A DNA stretch of 64,000 nt from positions 310,001 to 374,000 of the forward strand of contig NZ_JAHNZT010000003.1 of NCBI RefSeq assembly GCF_019039035.1, read 5' to 3'. Origin of the DNA: Citreicoccus inhibens. GTDB lineage: Bacteria > Myxococcota > Myxococcia > Myxococcales > Myxococcaceae. Positions 18,334-22,663 of this stretch are shown piece after piece. The number at the start of each line of letters is the position of its first letter. Position 1 is the stretch's first letter. The notes below the pieces were generated by a model. It had not been told where the DNA came from. It ran no database searches and saw only the letters and a list, made by a program, of their open reading frames with translations. A program made the position numbers and the translations under genes.

Positions 18334-19221
18334 TCAGTCCATCCAGCGGTGGATGCTGAAATCCAACCGGCTGCGCACGAGCCCCAGGAGGCTCTCCAGC
18401 TCGGAGCCCTCCAGTCGCGCGCGCGAGGCCAGGGCCGCGCGGATCAACTTCAACAACCGCTCGCGCGCCTGCGTCACCTTGCGAGCCACGCTCGAGCGCG
18501 GCTCGCCATACATCGTGGAGAGCCGGTCCATGGTCAGGCCATGCACGTGGTGCAGGCGCAAGAGGGCGCGCTCGCGCTCGGACAGCGCGGCCAGGCCGGA
18601 GCGCAGGGCCTCCGCCAGCGCCTGCCGCGTGTCTTCCTTCAGGAGCGTGCGCTCCGGGTCGTCCGGCGAGAACATCCGCGCCAGCGCCTCGGGCGGCTCG
18701 TCGAAGAGTTCCTGGCGTCCGTCCTGGCTCGCCAGCTCACCCACGATGCGCGTGGCGATGATGCGCACCCACGCCAGCAGCGGCCCCCGCCCCGAGTAGT
18801 CGGAGATCTTCGCGGGCGAGTCTGTCCGCCCCAAGAGCAGGCGCTGGCGCATCACCTGGAGCACCTCGTCCACGGTGGCGGAAGGCAGCGCGCCCAGCCG
18901 AGGCGGGACCTTCTCCAACACGTGCTGCTCGAAGGCGGCCAACGCCCGGCGCTCGCCCGTGGCGCACGCGCACGCCAGATACAGGTCCGCCACATGAAGC
19001 TGACCCAGCGCGTCCGGCACGGGCGCCGAGGGCAGGTGGCGCGCCACGTGTTGGATGAAGGTCGCCCCGCTCATCTCCAGCTCGGGCCACGCCGTGTGGG
19101 CCTTCTCCACCAGCTCCGCGAGGCGCGCCTCCAAGCCCTCCACGGAGTCCAGCTCTGCCTGACGCGTGGCGGGCAGCCGCTCCCGAAACGCCGCCACGAG
19201 GGAGTCACGGGATTGGCTCAT
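18334..19221 (-). CDS. sigma-70 family RNA polymerase sigma factor (Myxococcales type)
   Basis: 295-aa sigma factor with a myxobacterial N-terminal extension. Region 2 is around GPLLAWVRIIATRIVGEL and region 4 around LSERERALLRLHHVHGLTMD with a helix-turn-helix in MYGEPRSSVARKV. It fits the Myxococcales-specific sigma-70 group of ECF-like factors (remembered as TIGR03001). ATG at 19221 overlaps the stop of the upstream kinase gene (ATGA), so the two are translationally coupled. The kinase bears an anti-sigma zinc motif, making it the likely regulator. Confidence 0.88.
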   Translation of the reverse strand: MSQSRDSLVAAFRERLPATRQAELDSVEGLEARLAELVEKAHTAWPELEMSGATFIQHVARHLPSAPVPDALGQLHVADLYLACACATGERRALAAFEQHVLEKVPPRLGALPSATVDEVLQVMRQRLLLGRTDSPAKISDYSGRGPLLAWVRIIATRIVGELASQDGRQELFDEPPEALARMFSPDDPERTLLKEDTRQALAEALRSGLAALSERERALLRLHHVHGLTMDRLSTMYGEPRSSVARKVTQARERLLKLIRAALASRARLEGSELESLLGLVRSRLDFSIHRWMD

Positions 19222-22200
19222 GGAGTCACCTCGTGTCGGGCCAGGGAGGGGGCCTCGGACTGACGGGCCAACCAGCCCTGCACCTCCTTCAGCTCCTGTG
19301 TGGCGCGCACCCCCAGCTTCGTCATGCAGGCGCGCGCGGCCTCCACCCGCTCGGTGGCGCGCTGCGCGTCGCCGGGCCCTCCTCGCACGGCCAAGGCCTT
19401 CCCCAAGAGGAAGGTGGCCCATCCCTCGTCGAGCGGATCTCGCGAGGCGACCACATGCACCCGCAGCGCCCGCTCCAGCAACGGCACCGCGGGGTCCACC
19501 GAGCCCAGTGCGAGCTGCGCCTCCGCGATGCACGCGAGATCCAACGCCACGTCGGGGGACTCGGAACCCTGCGCCTTCTCATCGAGCTTCAAGGCCCGCT
19601 CGCAATGGGCCTGGGCCTGCTTGGGTGTGTTGGTGGCCAGCTCCAGGTGCGCCAAGGGGCGGAGCGCGAAGCCCACCGTGGCGCTCTCCGGCCCGTTCTC
19701 CATCTCCCAGAGCTGGACGGAGCGCTGGAGGTTGCGCCGCGCCTCGGCGTTGCGGCCCAGGCGCTGCTGCGCCATCCCCATGTACATGAGCGCGGGCGCG
19801 GCTCGCGACGTGTCCGCGCCGAGCGCGCGCTGGAGCCGCTCCACCGCTTGCCGGTGATAGGACAGGGCCTCCTCGAAGTGCTGCGAGTCGTAGGCCACCA
19901 TGCCCACGCCCGACAGCGCGATGGCCGTGTTGGGGTGGTCCGTCCCCTTGCTGTGCTCGAAGATGGCGACCGCCCGAGTCAGGTACTCGCGCGCCTCGTC
20001 CAGCCGGCCGAGCACGCGCAGCACCGAGCCCAGGTTGTTGAGCGGCGCCGCAAGGCTGGGGTGGTCCGCCGCGCGCGAGGCCTCCAGCAGCGCCAGCGAG
20101 CGACGCCACACCGAGATGGCCTCTTCGCGCCGCCCCAAGGACATCAGCTCCGCGGCGATGTTGCTCAAGTTCAGCGCGAGCCCCGGGTGGTCCGGTCCCC
20201 AGATGGCCTCGCGCTGCGCCTGGGCCTTGCGGTACAGCGCCAGCGCCTCCGCGGACCGCAGCTGGCGCGAGCGGACCCGGCCCAGGCCGGAGACGAAGTA
20301 GGAGGTGCGCAGGCTCTCCTGCCCGTAGGCCTTGCGAGACAGGGCCAGGCCCTCGGTGAACTCCTCGTCGGCGCGCTCCAGCCGGCCCTCCACCAACCAC
20401 ACGCCACCCAGTCGCAAATGCAAGTCCGTGGCGATACCAGGGAAGCGGTCGCGCCCGAGCCGCTCCACCGCGGCGCGGGCATGCTGGGCCAGCCGGTCCG
20501 CCTCGCCCACCCGAGCGAGCTGATCTCCCACCACCCAGATGAGGAGAATCCAGGCGCGGGCCACCGTCTCGTCGTCGCGGCTGGCCTCGGCCGCCCAGAG
20601 CGCGCGGTAGAGGATGCCCTCGGCCTCGGTGAGCTTGCCGGCCATGCCGTGCAGGTGGCCGTGGAGCAGCAGGACCTCGGCCTCCAGCGGGCGGTAGTCG
20701 ATGCTCGCGATGTCCTTGAGCAGCGCCGTGGTCAGCACGATGCCGTCGGCGTGGCGACCGGCCTCCATGCGAGCCCGCGCCTCGGCCAGCTTTCGGCGGG
20801 CCGCGTCCACCTTCGGGCGGAGCGCCTCCAACGGCTGAGGCCGCGTGGAGAGCACCGGCGCGTCGCGGCACCCCTCCAGCCCCTCCAGGGAGGAGATCAT
20901 CTGCTGCGCGTTCTGGACCGTCTGCGCGTCCGCGTTCTCCAGCACCTCGGTGATGGCGGCGAGCTGCCACAGCCGCGCGTCCAGGCAGGCCTGGGTCTGC
21001 CAGGCGGCCTCGGGCGCGGAGCCTCCGGCCGCGAGGCACGCCTCGGTGCGCAGCGCGCGCCACTGGCCCGCGTGCGCGTCCAGCTCCGCGGAGAGGGTCT
21101 CCCACGCGGAGGTGGCGTAGGCCTTGCCGGTGGCGAGGAAGGCCTGATGCACCCGCTCACGCTGCGCGGGCCCCCACACTCGGGCGAGGTTCTCCGCCTC
21201 CTGCTCGCAGCGGACCTCGCGGCGGTGCGCGCCGCCGTAGCCCACGACCAGCCCCACCAGACACGCGAACGCGACGGCCGTCGCCCACAGGCCCACCCGA
21301 CGCACGGGGTGGCGGGTGAGCGCGGCGAGCAGCACCTCCATCGAGGGGAAGCGGTCCTCGGGCTTGGGGCTCAGTCCACGCAACACCACGGCGCGCAGCC
21401 AGGCCGGCACGCGGCTGTCGCGCGGCGGGGGTCGCACCCGACCGGCGAGCGCGGCCTCCCCCAGGGCCTCAGGCGTCACGCCCTCGAACGGGCGCAGGCC
21501 ATAGAGGGCCTCGTGCAGCGCCACGCAGAAGCTGAACTGGTCGGACAGCGCGTCGGCGCTCCCGCCCATGAGCTGCTCCGGGGCCATGTACGCGGGCGTC
21601 CCCAGCAGCGCGCCCGTGCGGGTCAGCAGCGCGTCGGCGCCGCCTTCCGGGGCAGGAGGCACCGCCACCGGAGCCTCGACAGGAGGACCTCCCCGGTTGG
21701 AGGGTCGGGCCAGACCGAAGTCCGTCACCCGCACGCGCCCGTCCTTGCCCACCAGGACGTTGGCCGGCTTGAAGTCGCGGTGCACCAGCCCCGCCGTGTG
21801 CGCCGCCGCGAGCCCTCGGCCCGCGTCCAGGAAGATGCGCAGCACCTCCGGCCAGGGGCGCGGGGACTTCACCCAATCCGCCAGGGTGGTGCCCTCCACC
21901 AGCTCCAGCGCCAGGAAGATGCCGTCGCCGCAGACGCCCACGTCGTGGACGGCCACCACGTTGGGGTGCGAGAGGCGCGCGAGCGACTGCGCCTCGCGCA
22001 AGAGCCGCATCCGCAGCTCCTCCATGTGCCGGCCCTCGGGGCGCAGCAGCTTGAGCGCCACCTGGCGGTCCAGCTCCGGGTCGTAGGCCGCGTACACCAC
22101 GCCCATGGCCCCCACGCCAATGGGCTCCAGCACCACGTAGCGCGCCAGCAGGGCCCCGCGCTGGAGCATCACGGGGGGGTCCGTCCAGGGCACCTCCAGC

Positions 22201-22340
22201 CGAGGCGAGTCCTCCGCCGCCGCCAGCGCGCGCTGACAGGACGGGCAGCCCTCCACGTGCGTCAGCACGGACGCCCGGCGCTCCTCCGAGAGCGCGCCGA
22301 CCAGGAAGTCGCTCAGCGTCGTTTCATCCGGGCAGCCCAT
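19218..22340 (-). CDS. Ser/Thr protein kinase with N-terminal ZAS motif, TM helix and TPR domain
   Basis: 1040-aa protein. Residues 1-40 contain C3 and H28-x3-C32-x2-C35, the zinc anti-sigma (ZAS/zf-HC2) pattern. A Hanks-type kinase follows: GVGAMG loop, VALKLL with Lys97, HRDFKPANV and DFGLA. A single TM helix (VGLWATAVAFACLVGLVVGY) leads to a long TPR-rich region (repeats such as ALNLSNIAAELMSLGRREEA). ATG at 22340 has a GGGGGG tract upstream. It overlaps the sigma gene by 4 bp. I infer a membrane sensor whose kinase end may hold or release the sigma factor; the known members of this arrangement are typical of myxobacteria. Confidence 0.9.
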   Translation of the reverse strand: MGCPDETTLSDFLVGALSEERRASVLTHVEGCPSCQRALAAAEDSPRLEVPWTDPPVMLQRGALLARYVVLEPIGVGAMGVVYAAYDPELDRQVALKLLRPEGRHMEELRMRLLREAQSLARLSHPNVVAVHDVGVCGDGIFLALELVEGTTLADWVKSPRPWPEVLRIFLDAGRGLAAAHTAGLVHRDFKPANVLVGKDGRVRVTDFGLARPSNRGGPPVEAPVAVPPAPEGGADALLTRTGALLGTPAYMAPEQLMGGSADALSDQFSFCVALHEALYGLRPFEGVTPEALGEAALAGRVRPPPRDSRVPAWLRAVVLRGLSPKPEDRFPSMEVLLAALTRHPVRRVGLWATAVAFACLVGLVVGYGGAHRREVRCEQEAENLARVWGPAQRERVHQAFLATGKAYATSAWETLSAELDAHAGQWRALRTEACLAAGGSAPEAAWQTQACLDARLWQLAAITEVLENADAQTVQNAQQMISSLEGLEGCRDAPVLSTRPQPLEALRPKVDAARRKLAEARARMEAGRHADGIVLTTALLKDIASIDYRPLEAEVLLLHGHLHGMAGKLTEAEGILYRALWAAEASRDDETVARAWILLIWVVGDQLARVGEADRLAQHARAAVERLGRDRFPGIATDLHLRLGGVWLVEGRLERADEEFTEGLALSRKAYGQESLRTSYFVSGLGRVRSRQLRSAEALALYRKAQAQREAIWGPDHPGLALNLSNIAAELMSLGRREEAISVWRRSLALLEASRAADHPSLAAPLNNLGSVLRVLGRLDEAREYLTRAVAIFEHSKGTDHPNTAIALSGVGMVAYDSQHFEEALSYHRQAVERLQRALGADTSRAAPALMYMGMAQQRLGRNAEARRNLQRSVQLWEMENGPESATVGFALRPLAHLELATNTPKQAQAHCERALKLDEKAQGSESPDVALDLACIAEAQLALGSVDPAVPLLERALRVHVVASRDPLDEGWATFLLGKALAVRGGPGDAQRATERVEAARACMTKLGVRATQELKEVQGWLARQSEAPSLARHEVTP

Positions 22341-22663
22341 CGGCCCCCCAAAGTATCAGAACCTAGAAATTACGGAGGGTTCCGTATCTGGAGGGCGGCT
22401 CCCTTCCAGGCAGAAATCATTTTTCTGGGATGCGCGAACGGCCGGGGCCTCTTCTCAAGTGAGTTGGCCTTCCTCCCCGAAGGCTCCGCTCCCAAGCCCT
22501 TCTCCCAGGGCGCCCCGGTCCCGGGGGACTCTCCCCTCCCCCGCGGACCGTGGGCCAGGCGCCTTGCCCCCCCTGGCGCTGGGGCCCGCTCGTCCCCGTC
22601 GCCCTCCGAGCGGCCGGTGGGGCGTCCCCGGTGGCGCCCATGGCCACGGCCTAGCTTTGGGCC
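22341..22663. other. 323-nt intergenic region with dyad at 22371-22386
   Basis: This region separates the kinase-sigma operon from the divergent secreted-protein gene. It has a perfect dyad TACGGA-GGGT-TCCGTA at 22371-22386, about 30 nt upstream of the kinase start, and a smaller CAGAAA/TTTCTG pair near 22411-22427. These could be operator or promoter elements; nothing else is recognised. Confidence 0.3.

Follow-up and report, generated by a model that had tools for sequence, protein, structure and literature searches.

A myxobacterial Ser/Thr kinase with an N-terminal zinc anti-sigma module and its neighbouring TIGR03001 sigma factor

The locus described here lies in a 64,000-nt stretch of the myxobacterium Citreicoccus inhibens (assembly GCF_019039035.1, contig NZ_JAHNZT010000003.1, positions 310,001 to 374,000), referred to as the window, and consists of a gene for a membrane Ser/Thr kinase that overlaps a gene for a sigma factor of the TIGR03001 family (Sig-70_gmx1). 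The kinase carries a zinc anti-sigma (ZAS) module at its N-terminus, and such kinases are paired one-to-one with TIGR03001 sigma factors. The pair is real and deeply conserved, and is a new variation on known sigma control: two kinds of control are known for extracytoplasmic function (ECF) sigma factors, one by anti-sigma factors and the other by Ser/Thr kinases, and here the two are fused and conserved across Myxococcota. An earlier sequence-only reading of the window stood with respect to the ZAS module, its conservation, the membrane kinase with tetratricopeptide repeats (TPRs) and the pairing, but not with respect to an upstream DNA dyad as a conserved regulatory site. The coding features are as follows.

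22236–22334, minus strand: ZAS motif, residues 3–35 of the kinase, C3-x24-H28-x3-C32-x2-C35
19218–22340, minus strand: kinase open reading frame, 1040 aa, ATG start; the encoded membrane Ser/Thr kinase has the zinc anti-sigma module at its N-terminus and TPRs at its C-terminus
21336–22139, minus strand: kinase catalytic domain, residues 68–335; Pkinase E 1.1e-35
21240–21296, minus strand: predicted single transmembrane segment, residues 349–367; hydropathy 2.22 over 19 residues
19218–21218, minus strand: C-terminal TPR region; TPR_12 E 4.4e-46, six stretches
19218–19221, minus strand: ATGA overlap, kinase stop and sigma start
18334–19221, minus strand: sigma factor gene, TIGR03001 family (Sig-70_gmx1), 295 aa; 317.1 bits against a cut-off of 154.6
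18337–18450, minus strand: C-terminal part of the sigma factor, residues 258–295, comprising the end of region 4 and a tail specific to the family

The zinc anti-sigma module of the kinase

The kinase protein begins with MGCPDETTLSDFLVGALSEERRASVLTHVEGCPSCQ (translation of 19218–22340, minus strand), and the Pfam domain zf-HC2 matched its residues 9–36 with 27.4 bits against a cut-off of 22.2. The assignment of C3, H28, C32 and C35 to a ZAS motif, made earlier from the letters of the window, was confirmed: the protein has the Hx3Cx2C signature and, some 25 residues ahead of it, one more Cys/His ligand, and the four ligands together with their spacing (x24, x3, x2) were invariant in all 62 Myxococcaceae kinases encoded beside a TIGR03001 sigma factor. 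Loss of the Cys/His residues in homologues, which the same reading had named as an outcome that would overturn it, was therefore not observed. Moreover, when a profile built from 26 diverse kinase N-termini was searched against the Protein Data Bank (PDB), the five top matches were all anti-sigma factors, namely RslA (E 7.5e-6), ChrR in two entries (1.2e-4), DdvA (4.2e-4) and RsiW (1e-3). Because it is invariant in 62 of 62 kinases and homologous to solved anti-sigma factors, the motif is, judged by its sequence, far beyond chance; a real ZAS module is supported, with zinc binding predicted. The N-terminus of a CHAT-domain protein (PDB 8rot) also matched the profile, with an E-value of 0.0044.

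The AlphaFold model of residues 1–66 contains helices at 6–13, 19–31 and 33–44, with a predicted local distance difference test (pLDDT) score of about 92 over residues 11–40, and forms a three-helix bundle of the zinc-binding kind, as predicted for a ZAS module. The eight top chains in a Foldseek search with this model belonged exclusively to the ZAS proteins RsiW, RslA and ChrR, with E-values of 0.8 or worse that are weak because the chain is short, and VIA-align gave Z-scores of 5.7 to RsiW and 5.6 to RslA. In class I anti-sigma domains (ASDI), helix 1 binds sigma4 and helix 4 binds sigma2, covering regions 2.1/2.2 (PMC7406223). No helix 4 followed the zinc bundle in the isolated model of residues 1–66, where residues 45–66 are coil (pLDDT 54–66); in a complex these residues could still fold on binding. 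Assignment to the complete four-helix ASDI was therefore rejected, and the module was classified as a ZAS core only.

The remainder of the kinase protein also agrees with what had been proposed for it. All Hanks-type elements are intact, including the glycine loop (GVGAMGVV), the catalytic Lys (VALK), HRD (HRDFKPAN) and DFG (DFGL), and since these motifs are intact in essentially all homologous kinases, the latter are probably active. Residues 349–367 form by far the strongest hydrophobic stretch of the protein by hydropathy, which suggests a membrane topology in which the TPR region would be periplasmic. Pfam and hydropathy thus bear out the proposed architecture of one protein with zinc motif, kinase, membrane segment and TPRs, and the ATGA overlap with the sigma gene was found at 19218–19221 as described.

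Pairing of ZAS kinases with TIGR03001 sigma factors

The sigma factor scored about twice the curated TIGR03001 cut-off and is a clear member of the family; the NCBIfam model covers the sigma factor only and not its ZAS-kinase partner. Its predicted structure matched the ECF chains sigmaE, AlgU, SigK and SigH with a Foldseek probability of about 1. A member of this sigma family is encoded in 88 of 96 family-level genomes, and no TIGR03001 sigma factor was matched on plasmids.

Conservation of the pair was assessed in 63 TIGR03001 loci from Myxococcaceae. A ZAS kinase lay within about 7 kb of the sigma gene in 62 of them, in three gene orders (31 kinase first, 17 sigma first and 14 divergent), and the stop/start overlap, with TGA inside ATGA or GTGA, was kept in nearly all of the 31 kinase-first loci. 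In distant Myxococcota families, a ZAS kinase was found within about 8 kb in 18 of 20 loci. As the kinases in these loci were chosen partly by the ZAS pattern, whole-genome counts serve as the unbiased test. The genome of the window has three TIGR03001 sigma factors over the cut-off and about 95 kinase genes; zf-HC2 exceeds its cut-off at 20 places, of which exactly three fall in kinase frames, namely in the neighbours of the three sigma factors. Many of the other zf-HC2 matches adjoin other ECF sigma genes, which is the usual place of anti-sigma factors. A second genome (G062) has five sigma factors, one slightly below the cut-off; of its roughly 112 kinases, five are zf-HC2 kinases, all of them adjacent to these sigma factors. 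In a third (G007), there are ten sigma factors, and a reading frame with zf-HC2 lies no more than about 4 kb from each; the kinase was read directly for five. Furthermore, evolutionary distances of the sigma factors correlated with those of the ZAS modules (0.91) and of the kinase domains (0.88), compared with at most 0.42 in 1000 shuffles of partners within genomes; because linkage inflates such values, the correlations show a stable partnership and not contact.

The sensor regions of ZAS kinases differ among subfamilies while the ZAS-kinase core is constant. In place of TPRs, some kinases carry nSTAND1 together with an FGE-sulfatase-like domain and others a pilus-assembly N-terminal domain; kinases with alternative sensors occur in L053 (8067–12065), L061 and L093. 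In another locus (L171, 1722–7915), two tandem ZAS kinases adjoin one sigma gene.

The Acidobacteriota provide an outgroup. In 20 loci (L198–L217) and in L154, with TIGR03001-like sigma factors that score below the family cut-off, a protein free of kinase motifs with the pattern [C/H]-x24..26-H-x3-C-x2-C is encoded directly downstream of the sigma gene in 21 of 21 cases; the spacing is x24 except in two proteins with 25 or 26, and many of these proteins have a membrane segment. Seven of them have Cys as the first ligand, and 14 have His. Judged by sequence, the Acidobacteriota sigma factors without a kinase apparently have a standalone zinc anti-sigma factor instead. Because all 21 of these partners are kinase-free ZAS proteins, the myxobacterial kinase would carry a sigma-partner module fused in cis, and this comparison is the strongest evidence for such a module in the kinase. 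The simplest reading is that the ZAS module was joined to the kinase in Myxococcota, in which case the kinase-free relatives offer a natural before/after comparison.

Proposed holding and release of the sigma factor

We consider it moderately probable that the pair works as a kinase and sigma factor with an anti-sigma module inside the kinase, which would hold the sigma factor at the membrane, sense a signal, phosphorylate and release. In this model, the N-terminal three-helix zinc module would tether its cognate sigma factor of the TIGR03001 family to the membrane, with sigma4 as the most likely contact, and so inhibit it, and the C-terminal TPR region would sense an envelope signal. Once activated, the kinase would phosphorylate itself in its cytoplasmic part, the sigma factor bound to it, or both, loosening the complex and freeing the sigma factor for RNA polymerase, while the overlapping genes would keep kinase and sigma levels matched. 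As helix 4 was not seen, the most likely hold is one centred on sigma4, perhaps with help from the kinase domain; in RslA, sigma4 is bound more tightly than sigma2 (PMC2877774). Release by phosphorylation has a precedent in two proteins for the single-chain release proposed here, as phosphorylation of RshA and RseA by PknB frees their sigma factors (PMC8999054).

Known systems resemble the window kinase in part. RslA (3hug), ChrR (2q1z), RsiW (5wuq) and DdvA (8rlz) share the homologous three-helix zinc module and a gene adjoining that of the cognate sigma factor, and several of them are, like the window kinase, membrane proteins; unlike these proteins, which have a helix 4 and no kinase, the window protein continues with some 30 or more residues of predicted coil and then a Ser/Thr kinase. 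PknS/EcfK of Xanthomonas, PknT/EcfP of Vibrio and the ECF43 group likewise have a Ser/Thr kinase that is coupled to a sigma gene of its own. Among them, PknS sits in the membrane and has periplasmic TPRs, as the window kinase appears to, but no zinc module is reported for it in the available part of the published account. In Mycobacterium tuberculosis, PknB acts on the zinc anti-sigma factors RshA (of SigH) and RseA (of SigE) and frees the sigma factors; these are separate proteins, whereas kinase and anti-sigma module form one chain here. In the open literature searched, which did not extend to the main ECF classification, no description of a kinase-ZAS fusion or of TIGR03001 was found.

Several observations weigh against this mechanism. 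Since the model of residues 1–66 lacks helix 4, sigma capture is possibly partial, and the sigma factor may be inhibited weakly or not at all. Across the 62 homologues, no Ser/Thr that would mark the site of a release switch was strictly conserved in the linker between ZAS module and kinase, and no ZAS partner was found near the sigma gene in one of the 63 Myxococcaceae loci (L055) and two of the 20 distant ones (L163, L172). The linkage that inflates the distance correlations also counts here.

An alternative that we judge unlikely, although it deserves serious attention, is that the zinc module serves for docking only and the kinase activates the sigma factor by phosphorylation without resting inhibition, in the manner of EcfP/PknT with a dedicated tether. 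The unseen helix 4 would fit this, as would the likeness to PknS, also a membrane kinase with C-terminal TPRs (PMC13147305). So would the sigma tail, in which S277 is invariant and S289 occurs in 84% of 62 homologues by column counts, and where model pLDDT drops to 42–59 over residues 271–295; this tail with Ser277/Ser289 is a candidate contact or phosphorylation region. The known ECF43 switch is absent, however. A Ser/Thr kinase gene lies beside the sigma gene in 62 of 63 Myxococcaceae loci, as in ECF43, but ECF43 sigma factors have uncharged residues (PMC13147305, PMC8999054) at two sigma2.2 positions that are acidic in the window family: position 119, three before an invariant Gln, in 62/62 and position 118, four before it, in 82%. 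Assignment to the ECF43 type of kinase-activated sigma factor, with its uncharged sigma2.2 and phosphorylatable Thr, was rejected. The Acidobacteriota relatives with a ZAS partner and no kinase also point to an inhibitory ancestor.

It is improbable that the zinc module is itself the sensor, freeing the sigma factor when it is oxidised or loses zinc, as RsrA and RslA do, with the kinase as a second input. The CxxC is invariant, and oxidation deprives RslA of zinc and weakens its binding to sigmaL about 8-fold (PMC2877774); however, the sensor regions vary among TPR, nSTAND1 and the pilus N-terminal domain while the ZAS module stays constant, which suggests that sensing lies elsewhere, and zinc often has a structural role in anti-sigma factors that are bound to the membrane (PMC7406223). 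A generic zinc finger without any special link to sigma, adjacent through operon inheritance only, would explain why zf-HC2 also occurs in proteins that do not adjoin sigma genes, but it is hard to believe given the exclusive pairing across whole genomes, its persistence through three gene orders and the kinase-free ZAS partners in all 21 outgroup loci.

With slightly more doubt than belief, the hold-and-release mechanism can be extended to a third control mode for ECF-type sigma factors across the phylum, in which one membrane protein would be anti-sigma factor, sensor and kinase, a reduced zinc module would hold the sigma factor and phosphorylation in cis would release it, the whole having arisen by fusion of a standalone ZAS protein to a kinase. 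The system makes testable how one kinase could both hold and free a sigma factor. Moreover, the pairing gives a number of myxobacterial kinases an assigned partner, and the TPR, nSTAND1 and pilus-type sensors represent natural input swaps on a constant core.

The upstream dyad and promoter candidates

The dyad upstream of the kinase gene had been proposed as an autoregulatory site.

22371–22386, no strand assigned: dyad TACGGAGGGTTCCGTA with the exact arms TACGGA/TCCGTA, located 31–46 nt before the ATG of the kinase gene

Its exact form occurs once in the genome, but with up to two mismatches it was also matched in 45 of 100 shuffles of the window, so that it does not exceed chance expectation. 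The only congener available has one mismatch in one arm, and the dyad is absent upstream of homologous operons in other genera. Perfect dyads with arms of at least 6 nt were found upstream of 6 of 31 homologous operons against 3.9 ± 1.8 expected, a number reached in 37 of 200 shuffles and hence no excess over chance. The dyad was therefore rejected as a conserved operator, and nothing supports it as a site specific to the window locus. An ECF promoter candidate overlapping it, GGAAC-N16-TCTGA, is plausible in the window and was set aside because it is not kept in other genera.

Roughly half of the 31 kinase-first loci have a -10-like element TG[AG]TA[AC] some 15–25 nt ahead of the start of the kinase gene, for example at 22340–22365 in the window. 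In the sigma-first loci L071, L078, L087, L093 and L106, which have a gap before the kinase gene, the common element TTTTTCGCGG..GTGCAAC..GGCCGGTG directly follows the sigma stop and is possibly a promoter.

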